Shown: in pieces, positions 14,256 through 61,975 of the stretch | How the letters are laid out: each line of letters begins with the position of its first letter | How positions within the stretch are numbered: the first letter of the stretch is position 1 | Assembly (NCBI GenBank): GCA_033032865.1 | Contig: JAWHQI010000523.1 | Span: 558,001 to 622,000, forward strand | Origin: Dactylorhiza incarnata | Lineage: Eukaryota > Streptophyta > Magnoliopsida > Asparagales > Orchidaceae | Reading direction: 5' to 3' | DNA: 64,000 nucleotides | Notes under the pieces: generated by a model | What the model saw: the letters and a program-made list of their open reading frames with translations, nothing else | Told to the model about the DNA's origin: nothing | Database searches by the model: none | Made by a program: the position numbers and the translations under genes

Positions 14256-15866
14256 GAAGGTGCCAACTTATTATGAATACATTATGATATCCAGGAAGCC
14301 GAACACAATCAAGCCGCGCGGTTACTACTAGACCCTACATACTTGCTTTCCAGGATGAAGAATGACAAGTCATAAGAACAGTTATTAGACCGAGCGGTCA
14401 GTATTTTAACTCAGGCGACTTGCAGCTAGTATTGCTGCAAGTCCCACCTCCGTGAATGTAACTGATAACCGATGGGGAATTTGAAATAATCAAGTCGTGC
14501 GACCATAAACTGGCTCTACATAATTGCCTTGCAAAACAGAATATCAAGTCGCAAGAAGATCAGTTGATAGACCGTGCGATTAACATTTAATCCGAACAAT
14601 CTATATGACAGCTTTATAAAATATTGGCTGACAAGCCGCACGGGCTGTATATAGAATTTGTGCGATTAGCAGGTTTAATGCTCGCAATGAGAATCATAAC
14701 TGCCTGATCGAAAAGAGCCTGTAATTAACCGATCGGATTGAGTTGGAACCCATAAAGATGATAGATTCACAACCCGAATAATGAGGTCGGCCGGTCATGA
14801 CTATGCTTGCTTCCTTGATATTTACCTTGTGATATTTTAATGATACCCTGTTTATTTCAAGCCGTCCGGTCTGAAAACTGGACCGCATGACATCTTTGGA
14901 ATCCGCTGATTTTAGACCGCCCGGTTTAATAACCAGACAGCCCAACAGTCCTGGTACCTGCTTATTTCAAACCGCCCGGTTTGAATGTCAAGTCGACCGG
15001 CTTGTGATGTTCATAAGGATCCTGCTCTTTTCTCTAAATGTTCTATATTAACCATATAAGGCGAGATAATTCCCTGTAATGGAATTAGAGGTGGCTACAG
15101 ACTCAGATGACCAAGTGGGCAGGTGGGCCTAGGCGGCGAACATTGCTTTCCTCAAGTGGTCATAAAAGCTGTAGAAATAAAGAAAAAGACAAGTACAGAC
15201 CCGGATGACCAAGTGGGCAGGTGGGCCTAGACGGCGAACATTGCTTTCCTCAAGTGGTCATAAAGGTTGTAAGCGACTCGACTATTCTCTTGCCTAGGGC
15301 TACAAGCCGAGTTGATCAATTGGGCAGGTGGGCCTAGGCGGCGAACATTGCTTTCCTCAGAGAGATCAACTCAGTTGTGGGTCCCGCTTAGGCATCGCTT
15401 GAGAGTACCTAGGAGTATTCGATGGTCACAGACTAAGATGATCAGTTGGGCAGGTGTGGTTGTGCCGCGGGGGCTATACCGACATTGCTTTCCTCAGAAA
15501 GATCATCAAAGCTGTAACTATATCCCTCTCGGGGCATGATAGAGCCAACATTCACCTAGAACTCCCTTGATGCAGGGGTGTGTCGGATATCAGCCGGGAT
15601 CCAAGGTTCTGAAGACCACCACACGGGAATTGGCAAGCTACCACTACACGTGTGCGAAAACTCCCCGCTACACATGATCTTCATGGTTTTACGCTAATGA
15701 CTACAATCCGAGGGGGTTCGAGCAGAACTTGGCGATGTCTCCGTGGTTCAGTGAGGTTGATATGTATATATGTATTTATAATGTAGAGAACCATCAGACA
15801 AGGAGAAGTGTCAGTATAGGGCTTTTCATTTAATACCAAAGAAACGTAAAGAATGAAAGAGACAGT
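14256..15866. other. Element 2 non-coding region between a2 and pol, with hairpin cluster
   Basis: No credible gene is present here. The left two thirds hold diverged short motifs (repeated ACCGCCCGGTTT-like stretches around 14850-15000). The right part carries four hairpins: 15096-15173, 15194-15271, 15301-15379 and 15427-15516. Each contains a conserved apical block ending GAACATTGCTTTCCTCA (the fourth reads CGACATTGC), and their stems differ from one another but pair. Hairpin 2 of this copy has GGTTGTA where others have GGGCTGTA, leaving a G-U pair if read as plus-strand RNA. Confidence 0.8.
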
Positions 15867-21453: not shown

Positions 21454-23507
21454 TAAAACATAATGTAAACAATGTTTTGATAATGAAATGAAAAGCTTTT
21501 ACCTTTCTATCCGTCTACCTTCTGCGACTTACTTGCGATTGTTTGCGATCTCTTTCTGTGTTAAATCTAACCAAGTCGTGCGACTTAATGTCAACTTATC
21601 CGGTTAGGATAGCGATCTTCATAAGATTCCGGTAAAGTATCTAAAAACCCACTCGCATAGCTTGCTTCTTTTAATCCGAATCGAATTTATCCGATTTATT
21701 CTGAGAAAGTGCTAACTTATTACGAATGTATTACGACATCCTGGAGACCGGACACAATTGATCCGCGCGGTTACTACTAGACCCGGCATACTTGCTTTCC
21801 AGGATAAAGAAGGACAAGTCATGAGAACAATTTTCAGACCGAGCGGTCAGCGTCTTAACTCAGGCGACTTGCAGTTAACATTGCTGTAAATCCCACCGCC
21901 GTGAATACAATCAGATAACCGATCGTGAATTTGAAATAATCAAGCCGTGCGACCGTAAGCAGAATATCCAGTCTCAAGAAGATCAGTTGATAAACCGTGC
22001 GATTAACATTTAATCCGATCAATCTATATGACAGTTATATATAACATTGGCTGACAAGCCGTACGAGCTGTATATAGAATTCGTGCGATTAGCAGGTTTA
22101 ATACTTGCAACGAGAATCATAACCTGACAAGCCGTACGAGCTGTATATAGAATTCGTGCGTTTAGCAGGTTTAATACTTGCAACGAGAATCATAATCGCC
22201 TGATTGAAAAGATCCTGTGATTATCCGATTGGATTGAATGGAAACCCATAAGGATGATAAATTCATAATCCGGATAATAAGGTCGGCCGGTCATGATTAT
22301 GGTTGCTTCCCTGATATTTACCTTGATACCTTAATGATACCCTGTTCACTTCAAACCGTCCGGTCTAAAAACCGAACCGCATGACGTCTTTGGAACCTGC
22401 GGATTTTAGATCGCCTGGTTTAATAACCAGACCGCCTGAAAGCCCTGGTACCTGCTTATTTCAAACCGCCCGGTCTAAAAACCGAACTGTATGACATCTT
22501 TGGAACCTGCTGATTTTAGACCGCCTGGTTTAATAACCAGACCGCCAGGTTTAATAACCAGACCGCCAGGTTTAATAACCAGACCGTCTGAAAGCCCTGG
22601 TACCTGCTTATTTCATACCGCCCAGTTTGAGTATTAAGTCGTCCGGTTTATGCTGCACATAGAAATCCTGCTTTTTCCTCCAAATGGTCTATAATGACCA
22701 TATGGGACGAGATAATCCCTGGTAATGCAATAAAGATGATTACAGACTCAGATGACCAAGTGGGCAGGTGGGCCTAGGCGGCGAACATTGCTTTCCTCAA
22801 GTGGTCATAAGAGCTGTAGAAATAAAGAGAAATAAGTACAGACCCAGATGACCAAGTGGGCAGGTGGGCCTAGGCGGAGAACATTGCTTTCCTCAAGTGG
22901 TCATAAGGGCTGTAAGCGACTCGACTGCTCTCTTGCCTAGGGCTACAAGCCGAGTTGATCAATTGGGCAGGTGGGCCTAGGCGGCGAACATTGCTTTCCT
23001 CAGAGAGATCAACTCAGTTGTGGGTCCCGCTTAGGCATCGCTCGAGAGTACCTTGGAGTATTCGATAGTCACAGACTAAGATGATCAGTTGGGCAGGTGT
23101 GGTTATGCCGCGGGGGCTATACCGACATTTCTTTCCTCAGAAGGATCATCAAAGCTGTAATTATATCCCCCTCGGGGCATGATAGAGCCAACATTCACCT
23201 AGACCTCCCTTGATGCAGGTGTGTGTCGGATATCAGCCGGGATCCAAGGTACTGAAGACCACCGCACGGGAATTGGCAAGCTACCACTACACGTGTGCGA
23301 AAACTCCCCGCTACACATGATCTTCATGGTTTTACACTAATGACTACAATCCGAGGGGGTTCGAGCAGAACTTGGCGATGTCTCCGTGGTTCAGTGAGTT
23401 TGATATATGAGAAAATGCAGAAAGGAAACATCAGACATGGAGAAGTGTCAGTATGGAGCTTCTTATTAAAATATCTCAAAAAACTGCAGGAAAGTAAAGA
23501 AGACATT
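21454..23507. other. Element 3 non-coding region between a2 and pol, with minisatellite and hairpin cluster
   Basis: No gene is seen. Contents in order: a ~73-bp tandem duplication (units from 22051 and 22124, with GCTGTATATAGAATTCGTGC); three 21-bp tandem units with the core TTTAATAACCAGACCG (22519-22581) within a wider zone of related ACCGCC motifs; then four hairpins at 22741-22818, 22837-22914, 22944-23022 and 23070-23159. The last ~350 bp before the pol stop are well conserved among all copies. Confidence 0.85.
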
Positions 23508-29128: not shown

Positions 29129-29180
29129 CGTGGCGAAAAGGATTTCACCGACAATCCGCGATCTGAAGGTCGCGTGTTTC

Positions 29181-35181: not shown

Positions 35182-35230
35182 TGTGGTGAGGATTTCACCG
35201 ACAATCCGCGATCTGAAGGCCGCGTGTTTC

Positions 35231-41279: not shown

Positions 41280-42054
41280 TGTTGAATCCGAGATCGCACC
41301 TCCGAGGGAAACCGGAGGCTGCGGGTTGCCGGTTACTTTTTATGTAGAAGAATGAGACCGCCAGCAGCGGTCAAGGCCAGATTTCGCCCGCCGCGGCAAA
41401 TGCTACTCCTGCGACGGGCTTTCCTTTGATTAGAAAGAAGTGGTTACAGCGGGCTGCAAGTGCAGGAAAAGAGAAGCCGGCCGGTCAGACAGTCCGCAAG
41501 ACGAGAAACTCGAGTCCGCAGCTCAAACAAGCGAGCTCCAAGATTCGAGTTTGCGTGCCTTGGGAACAGTGCCGCCCCCTATTTATAGGCCTGGGGGCCT
41601 GCCCGAGCGGGCAGGGATAGAATAACCGCCTGCCCGGGTACAGGAGAAACGGGCAGGCGGTGACGGGATACACAAACAAGGAAAGAAAATAAGCCGCGCG
41701 GCTTGGCGGCTTGCCCTTCCGACTTGTCTGACCAGAAGCTGGAGATGATGCGGCCAAGGTGACGATTCTACCCGCTCGGTCTCTGTCTTGAGACCGTGAC
41801 CTGTTCTTTGGCTTTGGACCTTGGCTTGTCTCCATGGAATAAACCGCGCGACCTCCGACTTGAGACCGCGACTTGCCCTGTTGGACCTGGGCTTGGATTA
41901 CCTCTGGTTCTCGGAGGCGGCCTGAATTATTACAGACCGCCCGCCCTATGTTAGCTGGTGCCGATGGAGCTTGCTTAACCTGAGCCGGGCGACTTGGATA
42001 CGCAAACCGCTCGGTCTGCGAGTAATCCTCTTGAAAGCGGTTTCCCGGGTAAAC
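41280..42054 (-). repeat. Element 4 3' LTR (left)
   Basis: This 775-bp LTR starts TGTTGAATCC (one change from the usual TGTTGAGTCC) and ends GGGTAAACA. The minus-strand TATA box is at 41580-41587. It is close in sequence to the Element 5 LTRs, sharing several changes not found in Elements 2 and 3. Confidence 0.92.
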
Positions 42055-42140
42055 ATAATCCCCGCATATTTTTAAATTTCCGTGAAGATTTCGAAAATAT
42101 CAGTGCTAGCCGGAGACCGCGCCGTCTTCACCCCGTTGGT

Positions 42141-42148
42141 TATAAATG
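42141..42148 (+). promoter_or_regulatory. Putative TATA box of Element 4 gene a1
   Basis: TATAAATG lies ~104 bp before the a1 ATG at 42245, at the same place as in Elements 3 and 5. Confidence 0.45.
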
Positions 42149-42244
42149 TTCCAGAAGCTTCGATTCTGGCATAACTCCATTGTTACCACGAGTCACTACT
42201 CGCCTATTGCGGTTAGGGCTTTCAGTTTGAACAGCCCAAAATAG

Positions 42245-42288
42245 ATGGTGAACCTGATGGCTGAGATGGAAGTTCTCGAGAAGTCCGG
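42245..42288 (+). pseudogene. Element 4 antisense gene a1, 5' piece
   Basis: This is the start of a1 (MVNLMAEMEVLEKSG), interrupted after the 15th codon by Element 5. The TCCGG at 42284-42288 is the duplicated target site; the gene resumes at 55933. Confidence 0.85.
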
Positions 42289-43064
42289 TGTTGAGTCCGA
42301 GATCGCACCTCCGAGGGAAACCGGAGGTTGCGGGTTGCCGGTTACTTTTTATGTAGAAGAATGAGACCGCTAGCAGCGGTCAAGGCCAGACTTCGCCCGC
42401 CGCAGCAAATGTCACTCCTGCGACGGGCTTTCCTTTGATTAGAAAGAAGTGGCTACAGCGGGCTGCAAGTGCAGCAAAAGAGAAGTCGGCCGGTCAGACA
42501 GTCCGCAAGACGAGAAACTCGAGTCCGCAGCTCAAACAAGCGAGCTCCTAGATTCGAGTGTGCGTCCCTTGGGAACAGTGCCGCCCCCTATTTATAGGCC
42601 TGGGGGACTGCCCGAGCGGGCAGGGATAGAATAACCGCCTTCCCGGGTACAGGAAAAACGGGCAGGCGGTGACGGGATACACAAAGAGGGAAAGAAAATA
42701 AGCCGCGCGGCTTGGCGGCTTGCCCTTCCGACTTGTCTGACCAGAAGCTGGAGATGATGCGGCCAAGGTGACGATTCTACCCGCTCGGTCTCTGTCTTGA
42801 GACCGCGACCTGTTCTTTAGCTTTGGACCTTGGCTTGTCTTCATGGCATAAACCGCGCGACCTCCGATTTGAGACCGCGACTTGCCCTGTTGGACTTGGG
42901 CTTGGATTACCTCTGGTTCTTGGAGGCGGCCTGAATTATTATAGACCGCCCGGCCTGTGTTAGCTGGTGCCGATGGAGCTTGCTTAACCTGAGCCGGGCG
43001 ACTTGGATCTGCAAACCGCTCGGTCTGCGAGTAATCCTCTTGAAAGCGGTTTCCCGGGTAAACA
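42289..43064 (-). repeat. Element 5 3' LTR (left)
   Basis: 776 bp, TG...CA ends, minus-strand TATA box at 42589-42596. The purine-rich stretch GCGGGGATTA (minus strand) directly precedes it and may be the polypurine tract. Confidence 0.93.
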
Positions 43065-43149
43065 TAATCCCCGCATATTTTTAAATTTCCGTGAAGATTT
43101 CGAAAATATCAGTGCTAGCCGGAGACCGCGCCGTCTTCACCCCGTTGGT

Positions 43150-43157
43150 TATAAATG
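43150..43157 (+). promoter_or_regulatory. Putative TATA box of Element 5 gene a1
   Basis: TATAAATG lies 104 bp before the a1 ATG (43254) and 86 bp inside the LTR boundary. It lies in the internal region, so the antisense gene would have a promoter separate from the LTR. Confidence 0.45.
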
Positions 43158-43253
43158 TTCCAGAAGCTTCGATTCTAGCATAACTCCATTGTTACCACGA
43201 GTCACTACTCGCCTATTGCGGTTAGGGCTTTCAGATTGAACAGCCCGAAAAAG

Positions 43254-45284
43254 ATGGTGAACCTGATGGCTGAGCTGGAAGTTCTCGAGAAGTCCGGGAA
43301 GAACCGCGAGAGAGACCGCGCGAAAGAGAAGAAGAAGAAAAAGGTGAAGCGGCCTGATAAGACCGTAACAATTGCTTCTGCGAGTAACCCGACCAACCTG
43401 CCTGCGGAGTTGACAATCGATTTGTCATCTAAACAGGAGGGGAATAAGCCGACCGAACTGCTTCCTGAGCAAACAGTCGTCTTGTCGACCAAGAATGCGG
43501 AGAGCTGTCTGAACCCACCCCCAGCTGATCCCCCAACCTTTTCTGACAAAGGAAATAGCCCGCCTTCTCCGCCGGATAAGACAAACTTGGAGGCTGCTTC
43601 CCAGAAAGGCGACGGGGATGAGTCTTTTAAGATGGAGGTCACCCCGTCCGGGGATTTTCATTTAAAGATTAGAGATAAAGGAGAGACAGTCGACTCCCCC
43701 AGGCCGAGCGAACAGCAAACTCCAATAGTCAACATCGAGGATAGTCCGGAAAAAACAACCGGTCAAAAGTCGAAGAAAAGGAAGAAGGAAGAGTCCGCGG
43801 CGGACAGGCTTCTCAAGAAGATGAAGAGGCTGAAGGCCAGGAATAAAGCAGCATCTGGGAAATCGAAAGCGGACAGCCTGCAAGGCAAGTCGCGCGAGAA
43901 TGAAGTTTCGGAAGGCCTGATTACTCCTTCACCCCAGCCGAACGACCAGGTTCCAATTGATGCTCATAGTATTTCCGTAAGCGACCTCCTCAAGGATTTT
44001 GATTCTTTTCAGAAGCAAGATGAACAACTGAGGACTTCTTCCGAACTGCAGGCTGCCAATCCGCCAGGAGGGAAGGGATCCGCCCTGTCTGAGGATGAGA
44101 CCAGCCTTAAGGAGGCCATCCTTCCTGAGGTCGCGACTGAAAGAACAATATCGGTACCTGAAGATACCGTGGCGGCTGGCCAGCGATTTATGCAGGTGAA
44201 GGCGGAGCGAGTAAGAGATCAACTTGCCAGGCTGCCCCCGCCGCAACCCAATCTTTTGCTGCAAGGTAAAAGGGGAGCGGATTACCCCTCTGTTCGTTTT
44301 TTCATGCCGCGGCCTCGAAACAAGTTGCGCGCTTCATTGTTGAACCCGTCGCCTAGCTTCTTTCCCTCCGCCGCTCAATTTTCTGCTGCTAAGCGGAGGC
44401 AAAGTGAAAGATCGTGGAGAGAACAACGCCGAAAGTTCGATACCGAGCTGGCAAGGCGACCCGTCGGCCCGATTTCAATTCAAACTGCCGCGGCTTGTAA
44501 GCGAGGGAAATTCGATGAAAGCGGTTTACTTTTGAACACTCCTTGACCATTTTCTCTTATTGCAGATGACCGTGGTTCGATTCTGAAGCCGGGCGAACTG
44601 GTGACTTATCTTCCCCCTCTGGATCCTCCCCTGCTGCATTCCTCTTTGCCGGATACCCGGATGGAGGACGAGATGTCCCGGCTTCAAAAGAACTTGGAAA
44701 CCCTTTCCAAGCAGTTGCGGGCTGTGGAGGAGAGAGAGAAGACCGCCCAGGACGAGAAAGCTGCTCTTCGGGCCGAATTGGAGACCGAAAGGAAGGAGAA
44801 CCGTGCGGCGCTGGAGGTCGAACGGAGAGAGCGCCGATAGAAGGAAAAGGCGCAGCAGGACCAAGTGGCTGCGCTGACCGCCCGGATTGACCGGGGAAAG
44901 AAAGAAGTCCGTAAGCTCGAAGAGGACTGCGCATATTATAGGGACAGATACCTCCATTTGGCGAAGGAAGCCGGAGGAAGTCGGCGCCCTACCAACATGA
45001 TTGACGAAGGCCGGCGTGGGTCAGGCCGCCCGGATGCAGGGACGAGTTCGTCTCTCCCTGTAGCCGGGACGACCTACCCAGTTATGAGTGTTCATGAGCC
45101 CGCAGCAGCCTTGCCTACTCGCGTGATCCCCGCGCCGCGAGTAGAGAGAGATGCCGCGCGGATTCATAGCATGATCAACCGCCTTAATCATAACATGAAC
45201 CAAATGCAGGGAACTGTCCTTCAGATCGGCGATCACGTCGCGCGGCTTCACAGGGAGGACGAGCCGGGTGAAAACCGTCCGTAA
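43254..45284 (+). pseudogene. Element 5 antisense gene a1 (two exons), one nonsense codon
   Basis: Exon 1 is 43254-44265 (337 codons plus one base). It starts MVNLMAELEVLEKSG, followed by a Lys-rich stretch (residues ~22-32) and a second basic cluster near residues 165-190. The intron 44266-44565 (300 nt) has donor CAAG/GTAAAA and acceptor TTATTGCAG. Splicing in phase 1 gives ..NLLLQ-DDRGSI... Exon 2 (44566-45284) encodes PGELVTYLPPLDPP and then a ~100-residue coiled coil (about residues 370-470). A TAG at 44838-44840 replaces GAG in the coil. Without the stop the protein would be 576 residues. The unspliced frame is also open to 44546. I recognise no family; a nuclear coiled-coil protein is an inference from composition. 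Confidence 0.8.
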
Positions 45285-45605
45285 TGAGTGGCTCTAAAGC
45301 ATGGGCTTGTAATATTATTTCAATTCGGTCCTTTGGACAATTGCTTGACTCTGATTATGTAATATTCGATCTACCTTTCAGGCCGTGCGGCCTAAGTATT
45401 CAAACTTATTATTTTTTCTGCCTTGTTGTGTTGATTAATGCTTGCGGGTTGCTTTACATAAACCGATCTGCCTGTTTTTGTGATTCTTTAATCTGCTTGT
45501 TTGGGTATATTTAGTCTTTGTGGTTGGCTTTTGTGGTGATGTGCCCGTACGGGTTGACCGGTCTAGCCGTGATTTGACCTTTACTAAATGCAGATCAGCC
45601 GTTCT

Positions 45606-45614
45606 TATAAGTAG
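45606..45614 (+). promoter_or_regulatory. Putative TATA box of Element 5 gene a2
   Basis: TATAAGTAG lies 36 bp upstream of the a2 ATG (45650), conserved in position and sequence in all copies. Confidence 0.5.
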
Positions 45615-45649
45615 CGCCCTTCCGGAAGTCCTTTTACCAAAATCTCAAG

Positions 45650-47459
45650 ATGGGAGTAAAGCGCCAGCCGAAGCGACCTGCTAAGACTTCTGCTACCCGC
45701 TCCGAAGCCGCTTTGGCCTTTCATTCTGCGGACCTCGAGGAGTGTCGCTTGACAAAAGCCGAGCTGGACGAATTCGTTGAGAAGCACATGACCGACAGTC
45801 CGCTACTCGCGCGGCTTCCGCTCCGGGATGAGCGGATGAATTCGTCTGGCCCAAACCAAATTGCGATCCCAATCGACCATTTCGATTGCGGATTTAGGTT
45901 CCCTATTTCGATTGAACTCGCCATGGTCTTTGACCAATATGGAGTTGTTCCCGGCCAGATTTCCCCCAACTCGATGGCCGGGATATGTAGCTTCATCTCC
46001 TACCTGCGGTCTGAGAGAGTCCGCTTTTCTATGGATCTCTTCAGGAAGATATTCTCGGTTCGGGCCATCCCGGACTCTGAATCGAACGTCTTCAAAGGCC
46101 ATCTTTATTTCGGCTACCGCGGGTTGAAGATGGTCAACCTTGCGAACAAGGTCACAGCCTGGTCGGAGAGGTATCTGATCTTCGAAGGCCGACTCGGCCT
46201 GTTGAACCCGAATCCGCAAGTACGGCCGGAGGAGGCCTTTCAACCGGTCCCAATAAGCGAGGTGGAGAAGGGGATCTGCAAGCTTCTCAAGGATGAGCGG
46301 CTTAACATAAGCTACTATATCCCTCTACTTGCCGAATTAGAGAACGTCCGGCTTGAAGATAGTAAGCTTCCTTTTGCTTCCGACTTCAATGTTGACCGCT
46401 CGATTTCTCGTGCTGACTCTTCTCCTTTTATAGCCCAAGCCGTTGTTCCTGCTAACAAGCCGATCAGTCCGGCTTGTTTAGTCTTGACTCAGACGGAGAA
46501 AAGGAAGAGGCAAGCCAGGAACAAGCCGCTGCCGTCTGATGGGGAGGATTCGGGCTCCTCGGGCGACTTTGCCGCTCTTCGCTCCTTCAGCAAGGTGAAG
46601 GATCTAAAAGGTCGCCCGGTTTTAACTTGGCACCCGGACAGCGATAGTGTCCAGATCTCTACTGCGCTCCCCCACTGGGCGAACGAGAAGTCGGGTCGTC
46701 ATGCTGAGGCCGCCAGCATCGGTATATTCGGCCGACGAAACTTCAAGAGGCTGAGGAAAATCCCTGAGGAAGAGCTCGCCAGGGAGGCCGCACGGGTTGG
46801 TGCTGAGAGCTTCATCACCAACGCCTTCATGGGAATGACCTTAAAGAGGTTGATTAGAGAAAACGCCCTTCAAGAAAAAGAAATCGCCGAATTGAAGAAA
46901 GAAAATGCGCGGCTAAAGGAAGCCGAGTCGGTAAGTCGTCACCTGGCCAGTATCAATACCAATGTTCTCAGACCGCACGGTCTTACCTTATTCTTTTCTT
47001 TTGCAGGCTAAGTATGATGAGACCGACCCGATCTATCAGCAAGAACTTTTCCCTCATGTCGCTGAGGGAATTGATAATGCTTTTAACCGCTTGCGGGAGC
47101 TCAACAGGTTCGCGCCTGGTTTCGAACATTTCACCTTCTCGGATGCCTACCCGATTTTGCAAAAGAAGTTAGAGAAAATCAGGCGGAAAGCCAAGGGAAA
47201 GAACAAAGCCGACGGATCTAGCTCAGAGGAGAGCGACGACGAGGATGATGAGGTCGAAGAACCCGCAGCGGCTAAGAGTGGCGAGAGCGGCTCGGAGTCC
47301 GAATCCAGCGATTCTGAAGAAGATGCTGGTCGCAAGTCGGGCGAATTGAGCAGCTCATCCTCGTCGGGTAGCGAGGGTTATTCCCCTGATGCTTCGACTG
47401 GTGGCAGCGAACATTCAAGTGCTCCTGCGTCTAAGAAACTCAAGTCGCATGATCAGTAG
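45650..47459 (+). CDS. Element 5 antisense gene a2: gypsy-type transposon-like domain protein, two exons, intact
   Basis: Exon 1 is 45650-46930 (427 codons). The intron is 46931-47006 (76 nt; donor GTAAGT, acceptor CTTTTGCAG, phase 0). Exon 2 is 47007-47459 (150 codons plus TAG). The protein has 577 residues. The N-terminus is basic (GVKRQPKRPAK). Residues ~70-185 (IAIPIDHFDCGFRFPISIELAMVF..) resemble the plant 'putative gypsy-type transposon' domain found in proteins linked to Tat-like elements. A coiled coil (about 396-427) ends at the splice site. The C-terminus (about 498-560) is a Ser/Glu/Asp-rich acidic tail. The gene is antisense to pol, with its own TATA-like box. No catalytic motif is visible and the role is unknown. 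Reading on through the intron would give a 453-residue form ending ..LTLFFSFAG. Confidence 0.8.
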
Positions 47460-47484
47460 CTGTATTTTACTTTTTATTTTGAAT

Positions 47485-47517
47485 AGCCGTCGGCTTGATG
47501 TTGTTAGCCGGACGGCT
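47485..47517 (+). terminator. Hairpin just after a2 of Element 5
   Basis: Arms AGCCGTCGGCT and AGCCGGACGGCT pair with one bulge, 25 bp after the a2 stop. The hairpin is conserved in Elements 3 and 4. A role in 3'-end formation is only a suggestion. Confidence 0.45.
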
Positions 47518-49464
47518 TAAAACATAATGTAAACAATGTTTTGATGATGAAATGAAAAGTTTTTACCTGTCTATCCGTCTACCTTCTGCGACTTACTTGC
47601 ATTTGTTTGCGATCTCTTTCTGTGTTAATTTTAACCAAGTCGTGCGACTAAATGTTAACTCACCCGGTTAGGATAAGATTCCGGTAGAGTATCTAAAAAA
47701 CCACTCGCATGACTTGCTTCTTTTAATCCGAATCGAATATATCCGATTTATTCTGAGAAAGTGCTAACTTATTGCGAATGTATTAAGTCGCGCGCTTACT
47801 GTTAGACCCGGCATATTTGCTCTTCTAGGATAAAGAAATACAAGTTATGAGAACAATCATCAGCATGAGCGGTCAGTTTTTAAACTTAGGCGACTTGTAG
47901 CTGACACCGCTGTAAATCCCACCTCCGGGAATGTAACCAGATAACCGACCCGGAATTTAAAATAATCAAGCCGTGCGACCATAAACTGGTCCTACGTAAT
48001 TGCCTTGCGAAACGGAATGTCTCTCGAAGATCAGCTGATAGACCGTGCGATTAACATTTAACCCGAACAATCTATATGACAGCAATATATAACATTGGCT
48101 GATAAGCCGCACGGGCTGTATATAGAATTCGTGTGATTAGGAGGTTTAATACTTGAAATGAGAATCATAAACGCCTGATTGAAGGAACCTGTGATTATCC
48201 GATCGTATTGAGTGGAAACCCATAAGGATGATAAATTCATAACCCGGGCAATAAGGTCGGCCGGTCATGATTATGCTTGCTTCCCCGGTATTTATCTTAA
48301 TACCTGAATGACACCCTGTTTTATTTCAAACCATCCGATCTAAAAAACCGAATCGCAGGTCACCTTTGGAAACTGCTTATTTCAAACCATCCGATCTAAA
48401 AAACCGAATCGCATGTCACCTTTGGAAACTGCTTATTTCAAACCGCCCGGTATAAAACCGAACCGCATGACATCTTTTGAACCTGCTGGTTTCAGACCGC
48501 GAAGTTTAATAACCAGACCGACCGGATTAACAATCCGACCGCTTGAAAACCTTGGCACCTGCTTATTTCAAACCGCTCGGTTTGAGTATTAAGCCGTCCG
48601 GTTTATGCTGCATATAGAAATCCTGCTTTTTCCTCCAAATGGTCTATAATGACCATATGGGATGAAATAATACCTTGTAATGCAATAGAGATGATTACAG
48701 GCTCAAATGACCAAATGGGCAGGTGGGCCTAGGCGGCGAACATTGCTTTCCTCAAGTGGCATAAGAGCTGTATAAATAAAGAGAAACAAGTACAGACCCA
48801 AATGACCAAGTGGGCAGGTGGGCCTAGGCGGCGAACATTGCTTTCCTCAAGTGGTCATAAGGGCTGTAAGCGACTCGACTGCTCTCTTGCCTAGGGTTAC
48901 AAGCCGAGTTGATCAATTGGGCAGGTGGGCCTAGGCGGCGAACATTGCTTTCCTCAGAGAGATCAACTCGGTTGTGGGTCCCGCTTAGGCATCGCTTGAG
49001 AGTACCTTGGAGTATTCGATAGTCACAGACTAAGATGATCAATTGGGCAGGTGTGGTTATGCCGCGGGGGCTATACCGACATTGCTTTCCTCAGAAGGAT
49101 CATCAAAGCTGTAATTATATCCCCCTCGGGGCATGATAGAGCCAACATTCACCTAGGCCTCCCTTGATGCAGGGGTGTGTCGGATATCAGCCGGGATCCA
49201 AGGTTCTGAAGACCACCGCACGGGAATTGGCAAGCTACCACTACACGTGTGCGAAAACTCCCCGCTACACATGATCTTCATGGTTTTTACGCTAATGACT
49301 ACAATCCGAGGGGGTTCGAGCAGAACTTGGCGATGTCTCCGTGGTTCAGTGAGTTTGATATATGAGAAAATGCAGAAAAGAAACATCAGACATGGAGAAG
49401 TGTCAGTATGGAGCTTCTTATTAAAATATCTCAAAAAGAACTGCAGAAAAGTAAGGAAGACATT
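47518..49464. other. Element 5 non-coding region between a2 and pol, with four-hairpin cluster
   Basis: No credible gene is present. The first ~1.1 kb contains AT-rich sequence with scattered ACCGCCCGG-type motifs and a ~66-bp tandem duplication near 48325-48445. Four hairpins follow at 48696-48772, 48791-48868, 48898-48976 and 49024-49113. The first has lost one T in its 3' arm (TGGCAT for TGGTCAT). The remaining 350 bp up to the pol stop are conserved among all copies. Transcripts of pol and of a2 would converge here. Confidence 0.85.
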
Positions 49465-52400
49465 TTAAGGATAGAACCGTTTGAGATCGTCGCCACTCCA
49501 GGTGCGCGGGATTTCTTCTCCTTCACTTGTTTGGAGGCGATAAGCCCCACTTTTTAATGCCTCCTTGACGATGAAAGGTCCAGACCAATTAGGATTTAGC
49601 TTCCCGACATTACCTGTTCGGGCTACTACATCAACCTTTTTTAGTACGACGTCGCCGACCGCGAAATGCTTTACCCTGACATTTTTGTCAAAGTACTTTG
49701 TCATCCTCCTTTTAACTTCTTCTTGCCTGATTGTTGCCTCATCCTGAAGTTCTTCGATTAGATCCAGACTATACTTGATAGCCTCGTCATTGTAGTCTAC
49801 CCACGCTTCTCCTCCTTCTTTTCCGTACACAACCCTTGGAGTGACCACCTCAAACTCCACAGGAACAACATCCTTCGAGCCATGAGACAGTTTGAATGGT
49901 GTCTCCCCTGTAGCTGAGGATGGAGTAGTACGAAGAGTCCAAAGGATGGAGGGAAGTTGATCCGCCCAGTTTCCTTTCTGATTCCAAACCCTTTTCATCA
50001 GGAGCTGCTGGATTCGCTTGTTGGCTGCTTCTACCTGACCATTGGTCCTTGGATGATGTACTGAGGAGAACCGCAGGTCAATTCCAACCTGATCGCAAAA
50101 TTTTATCATCTCGGGATTATTGAATTGTGGACCATTATCAGTGACAATTGCCAGCGGAATTCCGTGTCGGCAGACAATTTCTCCCCAGATGAAGTTTCTG
50201 ATGATTTGGGTAGTAGTTCTTGCCAGTGCCTTAGCCTCGATCCACTTGCTGAAGTAGTCAATCATCACTATGATAAAGCGGCGCTGACCGCTAGCCATTG
50301 GAAAGGGTCCAATGAGATCCATCCCCCAAACTGCAAAGGGCCAGGGTGTCGTTATTGACCTAAGCGACTGAGCGGGCAGATGCTGAAGAGGAGCAAACTT
50401 TTGGCACTGCACACACCGCTTGGCAAATGCTTCAGCATCCTTTCTCATGGTCGGCCAAAAATATCCTTGCCGCAGGATCCTCTTTTCTAAGGTTTTTGCC
50501 CCTGAATGGTTACCACATTCCCCAGAATGTACTTCCTGAAGTACGATAGGGATCTCTTCTTCTGAAACACATCGTGCTGAGGGGGAAATCAAAGTTTTTC
50601 TGTAGAGTACTCCTGCTATTAGATAATAATATGCCGCCTTCCTTTTGAATCTTCTCCGATCTTTGATGGAATGGTGGAGCTCTCCCTTTGATAGGAATAG
50701 CTCGTAAGGATCCTTCCATGAAGGATTATGATCAATTTGCATGAGTTCTGACTCATCTATTGCCGGATGAAAAAGTTCAAAGGTCACTCCCCCGGATGGA
50801 AGACCGAACTTCGACAATTCATCTGCCTCCTCATTTTGCGTTCTTGGGATGTGCTCGATAATAAATGACTTAAATCTTCCGATTTCCTTTTTGGCTAATA
50901 ACAGATATTTTCGCAGAATCGGCTCTCTTGTCTCATAATTTCCCAAGACCTGGGAAGCCATCACCAATGAATCAGTTCTAACATGTACATATTCTATGCC
51001 CAACTCTTTCGCGAGCCTTAGCCCAGCCAGAAGTGCTTCATATTCTGCCTGGTTATTCGTAACTGGGAAGAAGAACTTGATAGCTTGCTCCAGCCTGATG
51101 CCATTTGGGCTGATCAACACTACTCCGGCTCCCACGGAGTTCCTGCCAGAAGCCCCATCCACATAAATGATCCAGGCCCGAGGAGATCGCACCACCTGTT
51201 CAGGACTAAGCTCTGTTGTATCTACCAGGAAGTCTGCCAAGATTTGCGCTTTGATTGCTGTTCGGGGGATGTACGATATCTCAAATTCACTTAGTTCAAT
51301 AGCCCATTTTGCCAACCTCCCTGAATAATCTGGCTTTTCAAGAATATTTTTTAGAGGATGATCTGTAATAACTTGAACGGAATGAGCCTGAAAATAAGGG
51401 CGAAGCCTTCGCACAGACATAATCAAAGCCAAGGCCAGTTTCTCCAGGATCGAATATCTGGTTTCTGCATCCTTAAGGATGTGGCTGACATAGTATATTG
51501 GAAACTGCCTCCTCTTCTCTTCCCGAACGAGGACAGAACTCACTGCTTCTGGTCCGACTCCCAGATATAAGAATAGTTTTTCCCCCTCACGGGGACTTTG
51601 GAGTAGTGGAGTCGAAGTTAACTGTCCCTTCAGCTGCTCGAAAGCCTTGTTACACTCTTCACTCCATTCGAACTTTGATCCCTTTCGCAATGTTTTAAAG
51701 AATGGGGCACTTTTATCTCCGGATTTAGAGATAAACCTGCTCAATCCTGCCAATCTCCCCCCAAGTTGTTGAACCTCTTTAGTATTTTGAGGAGGGGACA
51801 TATCAAGGATGGCCTTCACCTTATCTGGATTTGGTGCAAGGCTATCAGAAGTTAAGAGATGCCCAAGAAATTTTCCTTTGTTCGCCCCGAACACACATTT
51901 CAATGGGTTTAATTTTAACTTGAACCTCCGTAGAGTAGCGAACGTCTCTACGAGGTCTTCCAAGTGCAATGAGAATGTTTTACTTTTGAGAAGAAGGTCA
52001 TCAACGTAAACTTCGAGATTCCTGCCCTTTTGATGTTTAAAGACGGTATCCATCATTCTTTGGTATGTTGCACCCGCATTTTTATGACCGATGGGCATTA
52101 CGAGATAGCAGTAACACCCATCGTTTGTGATAAATGAGGTATGCGGGATGTCAGGTTTATGCATTTTAATTTGATGATACCCGGAGAAGGCATCGAGGAA
52201 ACTCATAAAACCATACCCAACCGCGGAATCAACTAATACATCTATCCGAGGCAAAGGGTAACAATCTTTAGGGCACGCTTTATTAAGTTTGGTGAAGTCC
52301 ACGCACATGCGCCACTTCCCGCCGGATTTCTTAACCATTACAACATTCGACATCCACGTGGGATATTGAATCTCAGAAATGAAACCCGCTTTTAGGAGTT

Positions 52401-55098
52401 TGGAAACCTCCTCTCTGATGGGCAACGCCAGCTTGGTCGCCACTTCTCTCTTCTTTTGCTGGACGGGCTTGAACTCAGGAGATACGTTTAGATGATGACA
52501 AGCCACGTCTGGATCCACTCCTGGCATATCCTCCGCTGACCAAGCGAAGATATCCAGATTCCCCAACAGGCATGAGATTAGCTCCACTTTCTCCTCTTCT
52601 GACAATTCAGCGTTGATGACCAGCTTCTTCTCTGCCCCCTCAGCAATAGGAACTTCTTGGGTCGCTTGGGCAGGTTCCAAGTGAGCCCCTTCTCGATCTT
52701 TTCCTTCCTCGATGGCCTCTGGAGACTCAGCAACCTCCAATACCTCATCCATGATCTCGGGAAGCGGAACGTCGGTGACCATGTTGACAGTTCGGACGTA
52801 GCACTCCCGAGCAACCTTTGGGTTGCTTCTGACCCGATACTGTTTTCCTTCAGCAGCGAACTTGAGGGCAAGATGAAAGGTGGACACTACCGCCCTATAC
52901 GCATTGAGAATCGGCCTCCCAAAGATAGCGCAGTAGTTGCTCGGGGCATCCACTACCACGAAATTGACCAGCTTTATTATTCCTCCAAGAGAGACCAGGA
53001 GCTTCACTGAACCCTCTACCTCTTTCTTCTCCCCAGAAAAACTGTAGAGGGGCCCATCGGTGGAAAGCAGATGCTTTCCAGTCTTCAGGGCCTCGAAAGT
53101 TGGGCGGAAAAGGAGATAGACGGAGCTGCCAGTATCAATCAAAATCTTGTGGACGGTATAGTTTTCGATGACGGCCCTGTTAACCACCGCATCATCGAAA
53201 GGATTAGCATTGGGGGGAAGGTCATCCTGACCAAACGCGACAATAGTACTTTCGGGAGGAGAACTTGTAGTGGATGCCACTTCCTGCTTCAGAACCCTCG
53301 CAATGCTGGATTTGCGAGATGATTCCGCTCCAGCTCCCCCATGGATACAATAGATGTCCCGTAAAGGGCCCACATCATTGACCTCGACGCATTCGGTAGA
53401 AGGATGGATATCACCATAGTAGCCGGCGTCCTCGACGTCGGCGCATTCCCAGGTCACTTCTACTGTTTCCTTCTCCTTTTTCTTCTCGGTAGTTGGCTCA
53501 GCAGTTTTATCTTTCCGAACTAGACCCCGGAGCTTTCCTTCTCCCAGGAGTCTTTCTATAAGCAGACGAAGAGCTCGACAGTCTTCAGTTAGATGTCCCC
53601 CCTCTTTATGATATTCACAATAAAGGTTCGGATTCCGATTGCGAATATCCGCCTTTAGAGGAGCGGGCCTTTTGAAATCTGGCCTCTTTTGCAGAATCTG
53701 GACTACCTCGTCCATGGTGACGTTTAGGGGAGTGAATGGCTCTTGCGAATCATCATATTGCATTGATGGAACGACTGGAGGTGGTTGCGCGGCATACTGT
53801 GGTAAATATACCGGCATGATTTGCGGAAGGGGAGCGGATGGAGCGGGAGCGATGGCCAACGGTGGTTTCTGATCTTGAAACCGCTGATGGCCCATAAATG
53901 ATTGCTTATTCTTGTAGTTCCTCCCCCTTTGGGAACGGGGTTCGAAGTGGGACTGATTCGATGGTGGATAACGGAAGGATGGATTTGATGGCTCCTTGTC
54001 GCTTACCAGCTTCGCGACGTAGTCTGGATTGCTCTTCTCTCCTCTGATAAACATATTTGCCAAACTTATCATTTCCTGATAAGTCTTAGGCTCCCTTATA
54101 TTTGCTTCGAACTTTAGAGGGCCCTCCCTTAGGCCATGGATGAGGGCAACCCTATACAGCTCCGGGTCCACATTTTGGACTTCCATGATCTCTCTCTGGA
54201 ATCGATCCACAAAACGAGCCCATGTCTCGCCTTCCCGTTGTTTTATATCGAAAAGGGCCGCCGGGCCGCTCTTTCTTTTCCTTGAGGTGGAGAATCTCAG
54301 CAAGAATTCTCTTCGCAGCTCCGTGAAACAACGGATTGACCTGGGGTGCAAACCGTAGAACCATTCCCTCGCTTGTCCTTCAAAGGAGGTTACAAGAAGC
54401 TTGCACTTAGTTGCATCAGTTAAGGTTCTAAGAGCAATGGCTGACTCGAAAGCTTGTAAATGGACCGTGGGATCAGTCTCCCCATTGAAAGCTGGTAGGC
54501 GGGGTTCCCTGAAATTATTAGGGGCAGGCTCCCCTCTGACTTCGTCCACAAAGGGAGAGGTCTCTTCTATGTCTTCATATAGAGGAGTAGAATAATAAGC
54601 CGCAGGAGCTGCGGCTGTTCGCGGACAAGCCGCCTGATAAGAAGACCGGGCGGCTGCTTCTGGCAGGTAGGAGTGATGAATAGGAACTTCAGGCGGGTAG
54701 GAGAGACGGGCCGCGCCCTCCTGCGGGTAGGAAAAATGGGCAGCGTGAGAAGTCGCCCCCTGGAAGTCGAGGACTCGAGCTGGCATGTTGTGCGCGGCTT
54801 CCTGATAGAAGTTTTCCCTAGCCGCAGGGTCTTCTTGATGGAGCTGGAAATTAGCGGCTTGCGGTAGCGAGTAAGGAGGAGGTGGAGGAAGGACCGGGGT
54901 CACCGCCCGATTAGTCGCGGCTTGTTGCGGAACTAGTCGCTCAGTTAGTATTGCTAAGGTCCGACTGATCTCTTCAAGTCGCTGATCAGTGGTCCTCTGA
55001 GCCCGCTCGGCTTCTCTCTTTGACTGTTCCAGGGCTTCGCACAGAGAGTCCTCGCTATGATCGGAGCGGTCTCCAAGGGGGAACTGATGGTCTGACAT
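49465..55098 (-). CDS. Element 5 gag-pol polyprotein, full-length open frame
   Basis: The frame runs from MSDHQFPLGD (55098; this Met is conserved in Elements 2 and 3, an in-frame Met 9 codons upstream is not) to TAA at 49465, 1,877 codons. Order, numbered from the conserved Met: Pro/Ala/Tyr-rich N-terminus; retrotransposon gag domain (about 200-370); CEYHKEGGHLTEDC knuckle-like motif (~495); aspartic protease DTGSS (~650); RT with YVDD (~1030); first RNase H lacking the usual catalytic Asp near its start; archaeal-type RNase H with YVDGAS, NNQAEYEALL, RTDS and EEADELS (from ~1310); integrase HHCC finger (~1530-1570), DDE core (MDLIGPF, TDNGPQF, GQVEAAN) and C-terminal NPNWSGPF. No chromodomain follows. 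Oddities: RT reads MPIGHKNA instead of MPFGLKNA, and the protease DTGSSVY instead of DTGSSVN, so activity is uncertain although the frame is open. Confidence 0.95.
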   Translation of the reverse strand: MSDHQFPLGDRSDHSEDSLCEALEQSKREAERAQRTTDQRLEEISRTLAILTERLVPQQAATNRAVTPVLPPPPPYSLPQAANFQLHQEDPAARENFYQEAAHNMPARVLDFQGATSHAAHFSYPQEGAARLSYPPEVPIHHSYLPEAAARSSYQAACPRTAAAPAAYYSTPLYEDIEETSPFVDEVRGEPAPNNFREPRLPAFNGETDPTVHLQAFESAIALRTLTDATKCKLLVTSFEGQAREWFYGLHPRSIRCFTELRREFLLRFSTSRKRKSGPAALFDIKQREGETWARFVDRFQREIMEVQNVDPELYRVALIHGLREGPLKFEANIREPKTYQEMISLANMFIRGEKSNPDYVAKLVSDKEPSNPSFRYPPSNQSHFEPRSQRGRNYKNKQSFMGHQRFQDQKPPLAIAPAPSAPLPQIMPVYLPQYAAQPPPVVPSMQYDDSQEPFTPLNVTMDEVVQILQKRPDFKRPAPLKADIRNRNPNLYCEYHKEGGHLTEDCRALRLLIERLLGEGKLRGLVRKDKTAEPTTEKKKEKETVEVTWECADVEDAGYYGDIHPSTECVEVNDVGPLRDIYCIHGGAGAESSRKSSIARVLKQEVASTTSSPPESTIVAFGQDDLPPNANPFDDAVVNRAVIENYTVHKILIDTGSSVYLLFRPTFEALKTGKHLLSTDGPLYSFSGEKKEVEGSVKLLVSLGGIIKLVNFVVVDAPSNYCAIFGRPILNAYRAVVSTFHLALKFAAEGKQYRVRSNPKVARECYVRTVNMVTDVPLPEIMDEVLEVAESPEAIEEGKDREGAHLEPAQATQEVPIAEGAEKKLVINAELSEEEKVELISCLLGNLDIFAWSAEDMPGVDPDVACHHLNVSPEFKPVQQKKREVATKLALPIREEVSKLLKAGFISEIQYPTWMSNVVMVKKSGGKWRMCVDFTKLNKACPKDCYPLPRIDVLVDSAVGYGFMSFLDAFSGYHQIKMHKPDIPHTSFITNDGCYCYLVMPIGHKNAGATYQRMMDTVFKHQKGRNLEVYVDDLLLKSKTFSLHLEDLVETFATLRRFKLKLNPLKCVFGANKGKFLGHLLTSDSLAPNPDKVKAILDMSPPQNTKEVQQLGGRLAGLSRFISKSGDKSAPFFKTLRKGSKFEWSEECNKAFEQLKGQLTSTPLLQSPREGEKLFLYLGVGPEAVSSVLVREEKRRQFPIYYVSHILKDAETRYSILEKLALALIMSVRRLRPYFQAHSVQVITDHPLKNILEKPDYSGRLAKWAIELSEFEISYIPRTAIKAQILADFLVDTTELSPEQVVRSPRAWIIYVDGASGRNSVGAGVVLISPNGIRLEQAIKFFFPVTNNQAEYEALLAGLRLAKELGIEYVHVRTDSLVMASQVLGNYETREPILRKYLLLAKKEIGRFKSFIIEHIPRTQNEEADELSKFGLPSGGVTFELFHPAIDESELMQIDHNPSWKDPYELFLSKGELHHSIKDRRRFKRKAAYYYLIAGVLYRKTLISPSARCVSEEEIPIVLQEVHSGECGNHSGAKTLEKRILRQGYFWPTMRKDAEAFAKRCVQCQKFAPLQHLPAQSLRSITTPWPFAVWGMDLIGPFPMASGQRRFIIVMIDYFSKWIEAKALARTTTQIIRNFIWGEIVCRHGIPLAIVTDNGPQFNNPEMIKFCDQVGIDLRFSSVHHPRTNGQVEAANKRIQQLLMKRVWNQKGNWADQLPSILWTLRTTPSSATGETPFKLSHGSKDVVPVEFEVVTPRVVYGKEGGEAWVDYNDEAIKYSLDLIEELQDEATIRQEEVKRRMTKYFDKNVRVKHFAVGDVVLKKVDVVARTGNVGKLNPNWSGPFIVKEALKSGAYRLQTSEGEEIPRTWSGDDLKRFYP

Positions 55099-55151
55099 TA
55101 TGGCGAGAGGGGATTTCACCGACAATCCGCGATCTGAAGATCGCGTGTTTC
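55099..55151 (-). other. Element 5 leader between 5' LTR and gag, with small hairpin
   Basis: Only 53 nt separate the 5' LTR from the gag ATG. The leader contains the perfect inverted repeat CGCGATC-TTCA-GATCGCG (minus strand), which starts ~6 nt after the LTR. A conventional primer-binding site beginning TGG is not visible. The hairpin is imperfect in Elements 2 and 3. Confidence 0.7.
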
Positions 55152-55927
55152 TGTTGAGTCCGAGATCGCACCTCCGAGGGAAACCGGAGGTTGCGGGTTG
55201 CCGGTTACTTTTTATGTAGAAGAATGAGACCGCTAGCAGCGGTCAAGGCCAGACTTCGCCCGCCGCGGCAAATGCCACTCCTGCGACGGGCTTTCCTTTG
55301 ATTAGAAAGAAGTGGCTACAGCGGGCTGCAAGTGCAGGAAAAGAGAAGCCGAGCGGTCAGACAGTCCGCAAGACGAGAAACTCGAGTCCGCAGCTCAAAC
55401 AAGCGAGCTCCTAGATTCGAGTGTGCGTCCCTTGGGAACAGTGCCGCCCCCTATTTATAGGCCTGGGGGCCTGCCCGAGCGGGCAGGGATAGATTAACCG
55501 CCTGCCCGGGTACAGGAGAAACGGGCAGGCGGTGACGGGATACACAAAGAGGGAAAGAAAATAAGCCGCGCGGCTTGGCGGCTTGCCCTTCCGGCTTGTC
55601 TGACCAGAAGCTGGAGATGATGCGGCCAAGGTGACGATTCTACCCGCTCGGTCTCTGTCTTGAGACCGCGACCTGTTCTTTGGCTTTGGACCTTGGCTTG
55701 TCTTCATGGCATAAACCGCGCGACCTCCGATTTGAGACCGCGACTTGCCATGTTGGACTTGGGCTTGGATTACCTCTGGTTCTTGGAGGCGGCCTGAATT
55801 ATTATAGACCGCCCGGCCTGTGTTAGCTGGTGCCGATGGAGCTTGCTTAACCTGAGCCGGGCGACTTGGATCTGCAAACCGCTCGGTCTGCGAGTAATCC
55901 TCTTGAAAGCGGTTTCCCGTGTAAACA
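55152..55927 (-). repeat. Element 5 5' LTR (right), with promoter
   Basis: 776-bp LTR. The minus-strand TATA box TATAAATA is at 55452-55459. Just upstream of it (minus strand) lie inverted repeats 55470-55487 (arms CCTGCCCG/CGGGCAGG) and 55498-55532 (arms CCGCCTGCCCG/CGGGCAGGCGG, 13-nt spacer). By the TATA position, transcription should start near 55430 and run leftwards. Confidence 0.93.
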
Positions 55928-55932
55928 TCCGG

Positions 55933-59962: not shown

Positions 59963-61975
59963 TAAAACATAATTTAAATAATGTTTTGATGATGAAATGA
60001 AAAGCTTTTACCTGTCTATCCGTCTACCTTCTGTGACTTACTTGTAATTGTTTGAGATTTCTTTCTGTGTTAAATCTAACCAAGTCGTGCGGCTTAATGT
60101 CAACTCATCCGGTTAGGATAAGATTCCGGTAGAGCATCTAAAAAACCCACTCGCATGGCTTGCTTCTCTTAATCCGAATCGAATATATCCGATTTATTCT
60201 GAGAAAGTGCTAACTTATTACGAATGTATTACGACATCCTGGAAATCGAACATAATTAAGTCGCGTGGTTACTGTTAGATTCGGCATACTTGCTTCCCAG
60301 GATAAAGAAGTACAAGTCATGAGAACAATTATCAGACCGAGCGGTCAGTGTTTTAACTCAGACGACTTGCAGCTGACATTGCTGTAAATCCCACCTCCGG
60401 AAATGTAACCAGATAACCGATCAGGAATTTAGAGTAATCAAGCCGTGCGACCATAAGCTGGCCCTACGTAAATGCCTTGCAAAACAGAAAATCCAGTCTC
60501 TAGAAGATCAGCTGATAGACCGTGCGATTAACATTTAACCCGAACAATCAATATGACTAATATATAACATTGACTGGCAAGCCGCACGGGCTGTATGTAG
60601 AATTCGTGCGATTAGCAGATTTAATACTTGCAATGAGAATCATAACCTGACGAGCTGTATATATAGAATTCGTGCGATTAGGAGGTTTAATACTTGCAAC
60701 GAGAATCATAACCTGACGAGCTGTATATAGAATTCGTGCTATTAGCAGGTTTAATATGTGAAAAGAGAATCATAACCGCCTGATTGAAGGAACCTGTGAC
60801 TATCCGATCGGATTGAGTGGAAATCCATAAGTATGATAAATTCATAATCCGGATAATAAGGTCGGCCGGTCATGATTATGCTTGCTTCCCTGATACTCAC
60901 CTTGATACCTTAATGATACCCTGTTTATTTCAAACCGTACGGTCTAAAAACCGAACCGCATGACATCTTTGGAACCTGCTGATTTTAGCTCGCCTGGTTT
61001 AACAACCAGACCGCCAGGTTTAATAACCAGACCGCCGGATTAATAACCAGACCGCCTGAAAACCTTGGTACCTGCTTATTTCAAACCGCCCGGTTTGAGT
61101 ATTAAGCCGTCCGGTCTATGTTGCACATAGAAACCCTGCTTTTTCTCCCAAATGGTCAATAATGATCGTTTGGGATGAGATAATCCCTTGTAATGTAATA
61201 AAGATGATTACAGACTCGAATGACCAAGTGGGCAAGTGGGCCTAGGCGGCGAACATTGCTTTCCTCAAGTGGTCATAAGAGCTGTAGATATAAAGAGAAA
61301 CAAGTACAGACCCAGATGACCAAGTGGGCAGGTGGGCCTAGGCGGCGAACATTGCTTTCCTCAAGTGGTCATAAGGGCTGTAAGCGACTCGACTGCTCTC
61401 TTGCCTAGGGTTACAAGCCGAGTTGATCAATTGGGCAGGTGGGCCTAGGCGGCAAACATTGCTTTCCTCAGAGAGATCAACTCAGTTGTGGGTCCCGCTT
61501 AGTCACCGCTTGAGAGTACCTTGGAGTATTCGACAGTCACAGACTAAGATGATCAATTGGGCAGGTGTGGTTATGCCGCGGGGACTATACCGACATTGCT
61601 TTCCTCAGAAGGATCATCAAAGCTGTAATTATATCCCCCTCGGGGCATGATAGAGCCAACATTCACCTAGACCTCCCTTGATGCAAGGGTGTGTCGGATA
61701 TCAGCCGAGATCCAAGGTTCTGAAGACCACCGCACGGGAATTGGCAAGCTACCACTACACGTGTGCGAAAACTCCCCGCTACACATGATCTTCATGGTTT
61801 TACGCTAATGACTACAATCCGAGGGGGTTCGAGCAGAACTTGGCGTTATCTCCGTGGTTCAGTGAGTTTGATATATGAGAAAATGCAGAAAAGAAACATC
61901 AGACATGGAGAAGTGTCAGTATGGAGCTTCTTATTAAAATATCTCAAAAAACTGCAGAAAAGTAAGGAAGACATT
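59963..61975. other. Element 4 non-coding region between a2 and pol, with tandem repeats and hairpin cluster
   Basis: No gene is seen. Three ~68-bp tandem units with TATAGAATTCGTGC lie at about 60580-60777 (two in Element 3, one in Element 5). Units related to TTTAATAACCAGACCG lie near 60990-61060. Hairpins are at 61209-61286, 61305-61382, 61412-61490 and 61538-61626. Confidence 0.85.

Follow-up and report, generated by a model that had tools for sequence, protein, structure and literature searches.

Four related retrotransposons in a stretch of the Dactylorhiza incarnata genome each carry a non-coding array of four successive hairpins that share a nearly invariant two-strand core. The array is probably a selected RNA structure, and we tentatively propose that it is a putative cis-acting RNA element on the pol-sense genomic RNA, read by a protein for export or packaging. 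All of the evidence for the array comes from four elements of one 64-kb window, the window being the whole stretch of DNA that was analysed (64,000 nt).

Self-comparison of the window revealed an LTR unit of ~777 nt in seven copies, and four related elements with pol on the minus strand (Table 1). The pieces assigned to element 4 are a reading of this self-comparison together with the LTR and target duplication data, and the two tandem LTR-plus-233-bp copies at 41280-43297 and 55152-55928 are best explained by insertion of element 3 at a site in element 4 immediately internal to the 3' LTR. For element 1, no target duplication was found within the offsets compared. Pfam scans identified RVT_1, RT_RNaseH and a further RVT_3/RNase_H domain in a pol piece of element 2 and an integrase in a pol piece of element 4, with no chromodomain in either of these two pieces. 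A reverse transcriptase followed by two RNase H domains is a mark of Tat elements. The Pfam family PF04195 (TRP28) was found above the cut-off in all three of the antisense 453-aa ORFs scanned (elements 2-4), which lie on the plus strand between pol and the 3' LTR. In addition, the dimensions of element 3 (LTR of 777 nt, internal region of ~12.1 kb and ~6.4 kb from the pol stop to the LTR) lie within the ranges given for Retand elements, with LTRs of 315-1,194 bp, internal regions of 7,380-12,869 bp and 2,933-6,566 bp between pol and the 3' LTR (PMC11963269). Judged by the TRP28 gene, the domains and these dimensions, the four elements fit the Retand lineage of Tat within Ty3/gypsy.

Several other features of the window were observed. 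A second long plus-strand ORF is located between the 3' LTR and the TRP28 ORF of element 2 (17089-18387, 432 aa) and element 3 (43236-44546, 436 aa), for which Pfam gave no match at E 0.01. The stretches 2977-7615 and 35999-41279 are made of a 180-bp satellite, which has a higher-order repeat of ~1.5 kb. They are ~96% identical, and element 1 with element 2 inside it separates them. At 63704-63999, an inverted match to the LTR (~300 nt, 84-86%) indicates that something else starts close to the right edge of the window, in or beside element 4.

Table 1. Coordinates of the retrotransposons, genes and hairpin arrays in the window (aa, amino acids).
Feature	Position	Strand	Remarks
Element 1	~7612-16248 + 29956-35999	pol on -	Interrupted by element 2
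Element 2	16249-29955	pol on -	Target duplication TGACC; nested in element 1
Element 3	42289-55927	-	5-bp target duplication TCCGG; nested in element 4
Element 3, LTRs	42289-43065 and 55152-55928		98.2% identity between them
Element 4	41280-42288 + from 55928	pol on -	Similarity followed to 63378
Element 3, long ORF	49465..55125	-	1886 aa; taken as gag-pol by homology to element 2 pol
Element 3, antisense ORF	45650..47011	+	453 aa; Pfam Transposase_28 (PF04195)
Array, element 1	15096..15516		Four hairpins
Array, element 2	22741..23159		Four hairpins
Array, element 3	48696..49113		Four hairpins
Array, element 4	61209..61627		Four hairpins
Hairpin 1, element 3	48696..48772		One base missing in 3' arm
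Hairpin 2, element 3	48791..48868		
Hairpin 3, element 3	48898..48976		Long uninterrupted stem
Hairpin 4, element 3	49024..49113		Different apex, 11 nt longer
Conserved block, element 3	48696..49363	- (pol-sense)	Array plus extension
Extension, pol side of array	49114..49363		250 nt; non-coding

The original prediction placed the array of element 3 within the shared 3' region of pol and the antisense gene. The array is found in neither gene, lying instead between the 3' ends of the two, which are convergent (pol stop at 49465 on the minus strand, antisense ORF end at 47011 on the plus strand). The same four hairpins in the same order had been described for elements 2, 3 and 4, as is indeed the case, and element 1 carries them too, for a total of 16 hairpins. 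The four arrays together contain 16 copies of the core strand ACATTGCTTTCCTCA (15 exact, one with a single mismatch), four in each element with the order unchanged. If up to three mismatches are allowed, the window holds 17 matches, the 17th outside the arrays, compared to 2.6 +/- 1.4 in shuffled sequences, none of 100 of which reached 17. A covariance model built from the 16 hairpins recovers all of them from the window at E <= 3e-23; of its eight further matches, five are these hairpins read on the other strand (E 0.006-0.018) and the remaining three are weak (E 1.1-6.4).

Read on the plus strand, each unit consists of a 5-bp base, one unpaired purine, 2-3 bp and then a helix that is either continuous over 9 bp or made of a 2-nt internal loop and 7 bp, above which 2-3 unpaired nucleotides are followed by TGGGCAGGTG, the apex and ACATTGCTTTCCTCA. 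From base to core, the 5' arm is 20 nt in length and ungapped in all 16 hairpins, and the unpaired column 6 is a purine in 16 of 16 although the letters of the stem vary. The constant top that had been predicted does not hold, as the apex is common to units 1-3 only and unit 4 has another. The constant part is the two-strand core TGGGCAGGTG/ACATTGCTTTCCTCA, near-constant apart from a few single-copy changes, which sits between a covarying outer stem and an exchangeable apex. For hairpin 1, the arms given in the prediction are not those of the copy cited, in element 3, which has TGG-CAT rather than TGGTCAT and GCTC rather than ACTC, while the full stem is present in the other three elements. 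With one base lost, the common fold is no longer obtained on the plus strand for this copy.

Paired changes at both arms, as described in the prediction, are found in five of the 17 aligned outer-stem pairs, where both letters vary without loss of pairing: 5-86 (G-C/A-T), 8-84 (T-A/C-G), 9-83 (C-G/G-C), 12-80 (A-T/T-A) and 16-76 (C-G/T-A). Exceptions occur at 9-83, with A.A in unit 4 and C.A in units 1 and 2 of element 1, and at 8-84, with C.A in unit 3 of three of the four elements. Over the 17 pairs and 16 sequences there are 225 Watson-Crick pairs, five G.U pairs on the plus strand, nine A.C on the plus strand (G.U on the minus strand), 32 unpaired cells and one gap, in an alignment where one gap was shifted by hand to line up the stem columns, which leans towards structure. 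The shuffle test used the unrealigned alignment A2 with 14 pairs. There, the covariation score is 0.229 compared to 0.129 +/- 0.021 in shuffles (0/500) and 0.024-0.152 for slid partners, paired cells amount to 86.6% compared to 80.7 +/- 1.2 (0/500) and 26-45% for slid partners, and cells with paired changes number 14 compared to 5.8 (0/500), with the caveat that related sequences can outscore every shuffle. Two of the five measures are unexceptional, namely pairs with paired changes (4 vs 3.5; 252/500) and pair types (7 vs 8.8; 494/500). RNAalifold gives three pairs with a two-sided change on the plus strand and five on the minus strand. The core pairs hardly vary and therefore provide no test of core structure. 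A selected RNA fold is thus supported by the paired changes and the shuffles, and weakened by the two unexceptional measures and by the number of independent paired changes, which is ~5 or 6, all within one array.

This small number also favors the explanation that the array has no function and arose by tandem duplication, by template switching that matched the arms (quasi-palindrome correction) and by an old recombination that made the block of element 1 like the others. Tandem repeats are, moreover, frequent in elements of the Retand lineage (PMC11963269). Duplication with random decay, named in the prediction as what would refute it, fits poorly because independent decay of the arms rarely gives the pairing of hairpin 3: from unit 1 or 2 to unit 3, the arm-decay test gave p 0.0004-0.003 with 14 pairs, 0.002-0.011 with 15 and <=0.0013 with 17. 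The evidence is weaker for unit 4 with unit 1 or 2 as the start (p 0.01-0.35), and the one paired change from unit 1 to unit 2 is not significant alone (p 0.08-0.20). The 14-pair version omits 10-82, 11-81 and 18-74 of the 17 pairs; on restoring 18-74 or all 17 pairs, the result for hairpin 3 holds and that for hairpin 4 weakens. In addition, template switching would be expected to erase internal loops and the bulge, yet both persist.

The array is part of a longer conserved stretch that reaches ~49363, 250 nt beyond hairpin 4 and ~100 nt from the pol stop. A coding role of the block is rejected on its stops, with 6-14 in every frame in all four elements; open stretches reach at most 88 codons, in a single frame in each of elements 1, 3 and 4. 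In 160-nt windows, elements 1 and 3 are 92.3, 96.2, 95.0 and 98.8% identical across the block and 77.6 and 74.0% in the flanks. This is the most conserved four-window run among the 83 windows with a match (85 windows along element 3) and includes three of the five windows at >=95.0%; the next-best run is at the reverse transcriptase, as placed by offset (93.7, 92.5, 96.8 and 94.4%). Counted in bins of 60 nt (element 3 coordinates), the divergence of element 1 from elements 2-4 is 0-8% across 48735-49331, 10-14% over the left edge, 12-63% in the repeat-rich and poorly aligning upstream region (48279-48675) and 12-32% downstream (49332-49865). Compared to the majority of the others, element 1 differs in nine of 325 hairpin columns, eight of 96 spacer columns and six of 250 extension columns, and in 67 of 204 flank columns, made up of 20/80 upstream, 6/17 immediately ahead of hairpin 1 and 41/107 from the block to the pol stop. 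In the pol end and 3' tail (49364-49745), the 12-32% difference of element 1 is above that of most of pol; by this divergence in sequence, the integrase end may have a separate history.

The branch of element 1 is shorter in the block (18/667) than in the flanks (28/168 and 88/476), and old recombination could be the source of this short branch. However, sites that divide the elements two against two group element 1 with 2 and element 3 with 4 in both the block (3/3) and the flanks (4/5 and 8/10), so that element 1 is not nested within the others, and the last flank differences of element 1, at 48694-48695, directly abut the start of hairpin 1 at 48696. Among elements 2-4, the block is not more conserved than pol, with private changes at 25/667 compared to 14/476 downstream, a point in favor of an array without function. 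Constraint in the active lineage followed by neutral decay after insertion would leave the block unremarkable among elements 2-4, and an old exchange predicts this as well. Within the array, variable columns are fewer in hairpins (20/325) than in spacers (15/96; p=0.006, or p 0.03 for element 1 alone), a contrast that falls to p 0.09 (0.15 for element 1) without the first spacer. We consider an array without function unlikely. The extension matches the hairpins in conservation and has stops in every frame, yet shows no significant fold (z 0.19 and -0.12 for 49110-49363), which counts against the proposed RNA element. Near its ends are two complementary GC-rich 9-mers, CCCCCTCGG at 49121-49129 and CCGAGGGGG at 49306-49314, with one base different in element 1; they are perhaps a closing helix of the extension, or chance.

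When folded in isolation, hairpin 1 (from element 2) and hairpins 2-4 (from element 3) are more stable than shuffled sequences, with z of -2.3 to -3.7 on the plus strand and -3.1 to -4.2 on the minus strand, lower on the minus strand in four of four. When element 3 is scanned in 90-nt sliding windows, best z values of -3.1, -3.3 and -2.5 are obtained for hairpins 2-4 on the plus strand, there is no signal for hairpin 1, and windows outside the block also reach -3.4 (48520-48609). Windows in 48500-48669 likewise outfold shuffles on the plus strand (z to -3.4). A short palindrome at 48639-48656 (ATGGTC...GACCAT), just outside the block and altered in element 1, resembles the stem of hairpins 1-2.

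The hairpins fold on both strands, and the functional RNA could instead be the antisense TRP28 mRNA, with the array as a 3' UTR or 3'-end-formation element that separates the convergent transcripts. In element 3 the array is downstream of the TRP28 ORF on the plus strand, ~1.7 kb past its stop, and elements 1-3 have AATAAA between hairpins 1 and 2; element 4, on the other hand, has ATATAAA, and the site is in the most variable spacer. The plus strand is favored by the sliding windows of hairpin 3 (z -3.3 vs -0.9) and hairpin 4 (-2.5 vs -1.2) and by the whole block (-2.3 vs -1.3; 20 shuffles per strand). RNAalifold energies are slightly lower on the plus strand (-10.55, covariation term -0.96) than on the minus strand (-9.85, term -1.67). 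In contrast, interior stem mismatches lean to the minus strand, five cells being mismatched on the plus strand and G.U on the minus strand compared to one in the reverse direction (nine vs five with terminal pairs included), although deamination after insertion produces both kinds of mismatch. The lower z of all four isolated hairpins also speaks for the minus strand. The strand evidence is weak and mixed; given a selected RNA structure, we lean slightly towards the genomic, pol-sense minus strand as the active one, and regard a role in the antisense mRNA as possible but unlikely.

At the DNA level, the four units could be repeated protein sites (iterons), for example for TRP28, with arms that are incidental or form a cruciform. 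TRP28 is called DNA-binding by a published predictor (PMC11963269), and the near-invariant core is repeated four times. For a DNA site, however, matched changes in arms ~40-50 nt apart would be superfluous, as would the kept unpaired purine and the internal loops, and we judge this explanation improbable.

In microRNA precursors and the terminal repeats of MITEs, the conservation expected is opposite to that of the array, in which changes fall in the stem around a near-invariant inner part. On this reversed pattern, identity as a small-RNA source or captured MITE, that is, a microRNA-like precursor or nested inverted-repeat transposon, was rejected as highly improbable, despite arms with ~20 nt of stem each and the finding that plant transposons yield such stem-loops (PMC10578108; PMC10760457).

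Other identities were rejected as well. There is no Rfam match at the gathering score in the window and none at E <= 5 in 48600-49500, which argues against a ribozyme, riboswitch or other RNA described in Rfam, and ARAGORN found no tRNA-like structure. The apices contain the palindromes GCCTAGGC (hairpins 1-3) and CCGCGG (hairpin 4), but shuffled apices hold palindromes of equal length with p 0.047 and 0.30; a dimer-forming role for them was therefore rejected and the palindromes are not counted as evidence. A search with the core pattern gave no strict and five relaxed matches in a viral contig collection, and 81 stretches matched the relaxed pattern in a genome contig collection. With regard to three neighboring core features, 59 of these 86 relaxed matches have none, 23 have one, four have two and none has all three, and they are thus taken as chance. 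The element 4 integrase has one pattern match in viral contigs, which is unconfirmed. Among the best 7,994 candidates by shared words, the TRP28 protein has one relative, from the orchid Platanthera zijinensis, with 42% identity over 68%. No description of such a hairpin array was found in the titles and abstract openings of the open-access literature among the matches listed.

The closest described repeats are those of a survey of tandem repeats in Retand elements, which concerns the same region of the same lineage and reports arrays in about half of the elements surveyed (PMC11963269). Those arrays were counted with Tandem Repeats Finder at three or more copies, whereas for the window the finder assigns 1.8 copies to elements 2 and 4 and lists neither of the arrays of elements 1 and 3. 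The words hairpin, stem and secondary structure do not occur in the main text of that survey. A study that it cites has, by its title, a similar unit length and place (cited in PMC11963269).

Among known systems, the array may be compared to retroviral export elements. It is likewise a non-coding structured segment between pol and the 3' LTR, presumably acting as RNA. The constitutive transport element (CTE) of the retrovirus MPMV and the RNA transport elements of the mouse retrotransposons IAP (RTE) and musD (MTE) are situated after the last structural gene and ahead of the 3' LTR, and their stems scaffold conserved loops. The MPMV CTE spans 162 bp and the musD element 412 bp, and a reporter assay for transport elements is given in the same source (PMC11379458); the IAP and musD elements are also described elsewhere (PMC12786077). 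The array differs from the CTE, RTE and MTE in its four tandem units with one core, in having no Rfam match and in its host, a plant, as plants are said not to use TAP/NXF1, the receptor of animals and yeast (PMC12786077). As in the Rev/RRE and Rec/RcRE systems, these elements also encode an extra protein, TRP28; unlike in those systems, it is encoded in antisense, and its binding to the array RNA would be hypothetical. An antisense-encoded protein of maize Grande is reported to be nuclear (PMC7264820). A structure model of the TRP28 protein had a mean pLDDT of 34 and was unusable.

A near-invariant core, a freely varying but paired stem, an exchangeable cap and repetition are what would be expected if a protein recognizes an internal loop. 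In the proposed mechanism of a cis-acting element, the letters of the stem would be free provided that they pair, the fixed two-strand core would be the surface read by the protein, the exchangeable apex would cap each unit, and four units in series would strengthen binding. We infer that the array acts as RNA and not as DNA, on the pol-sense strand, and that a protein binds it. Within a long unspliced genomic RNA, a position between pol and the 3' LTR suggests export or packaging, and the most likely job of the array would be the handling of full-length unspliced RNA, either by export as with a retroviral CTE/RTE or by selection for packaging. Given a selected structure on the genomic strand, nuclear export, argued by analogy, has about an even chance of being this job, and packaging or dimerisation a somewhat lower one; the preference for export over packaging is a guess.

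Export of the RNA of plant LTR elements is described as being without direct study so far (PMC12786077). It is conceivable, though doubtful, that the array represents the first RNA export element known from any plant LTR retrotransposon, independent of NXF1 and acting alone or with TRP28 as a counterpart of Rev/RRE. If the proposed role is true, the repeated, conserved short RNA element could be used directly as bait to find the factor recognizing it, and a first function would be assigned to part of the long, unexplained region between pol and the 3' LTR of Retand elements.
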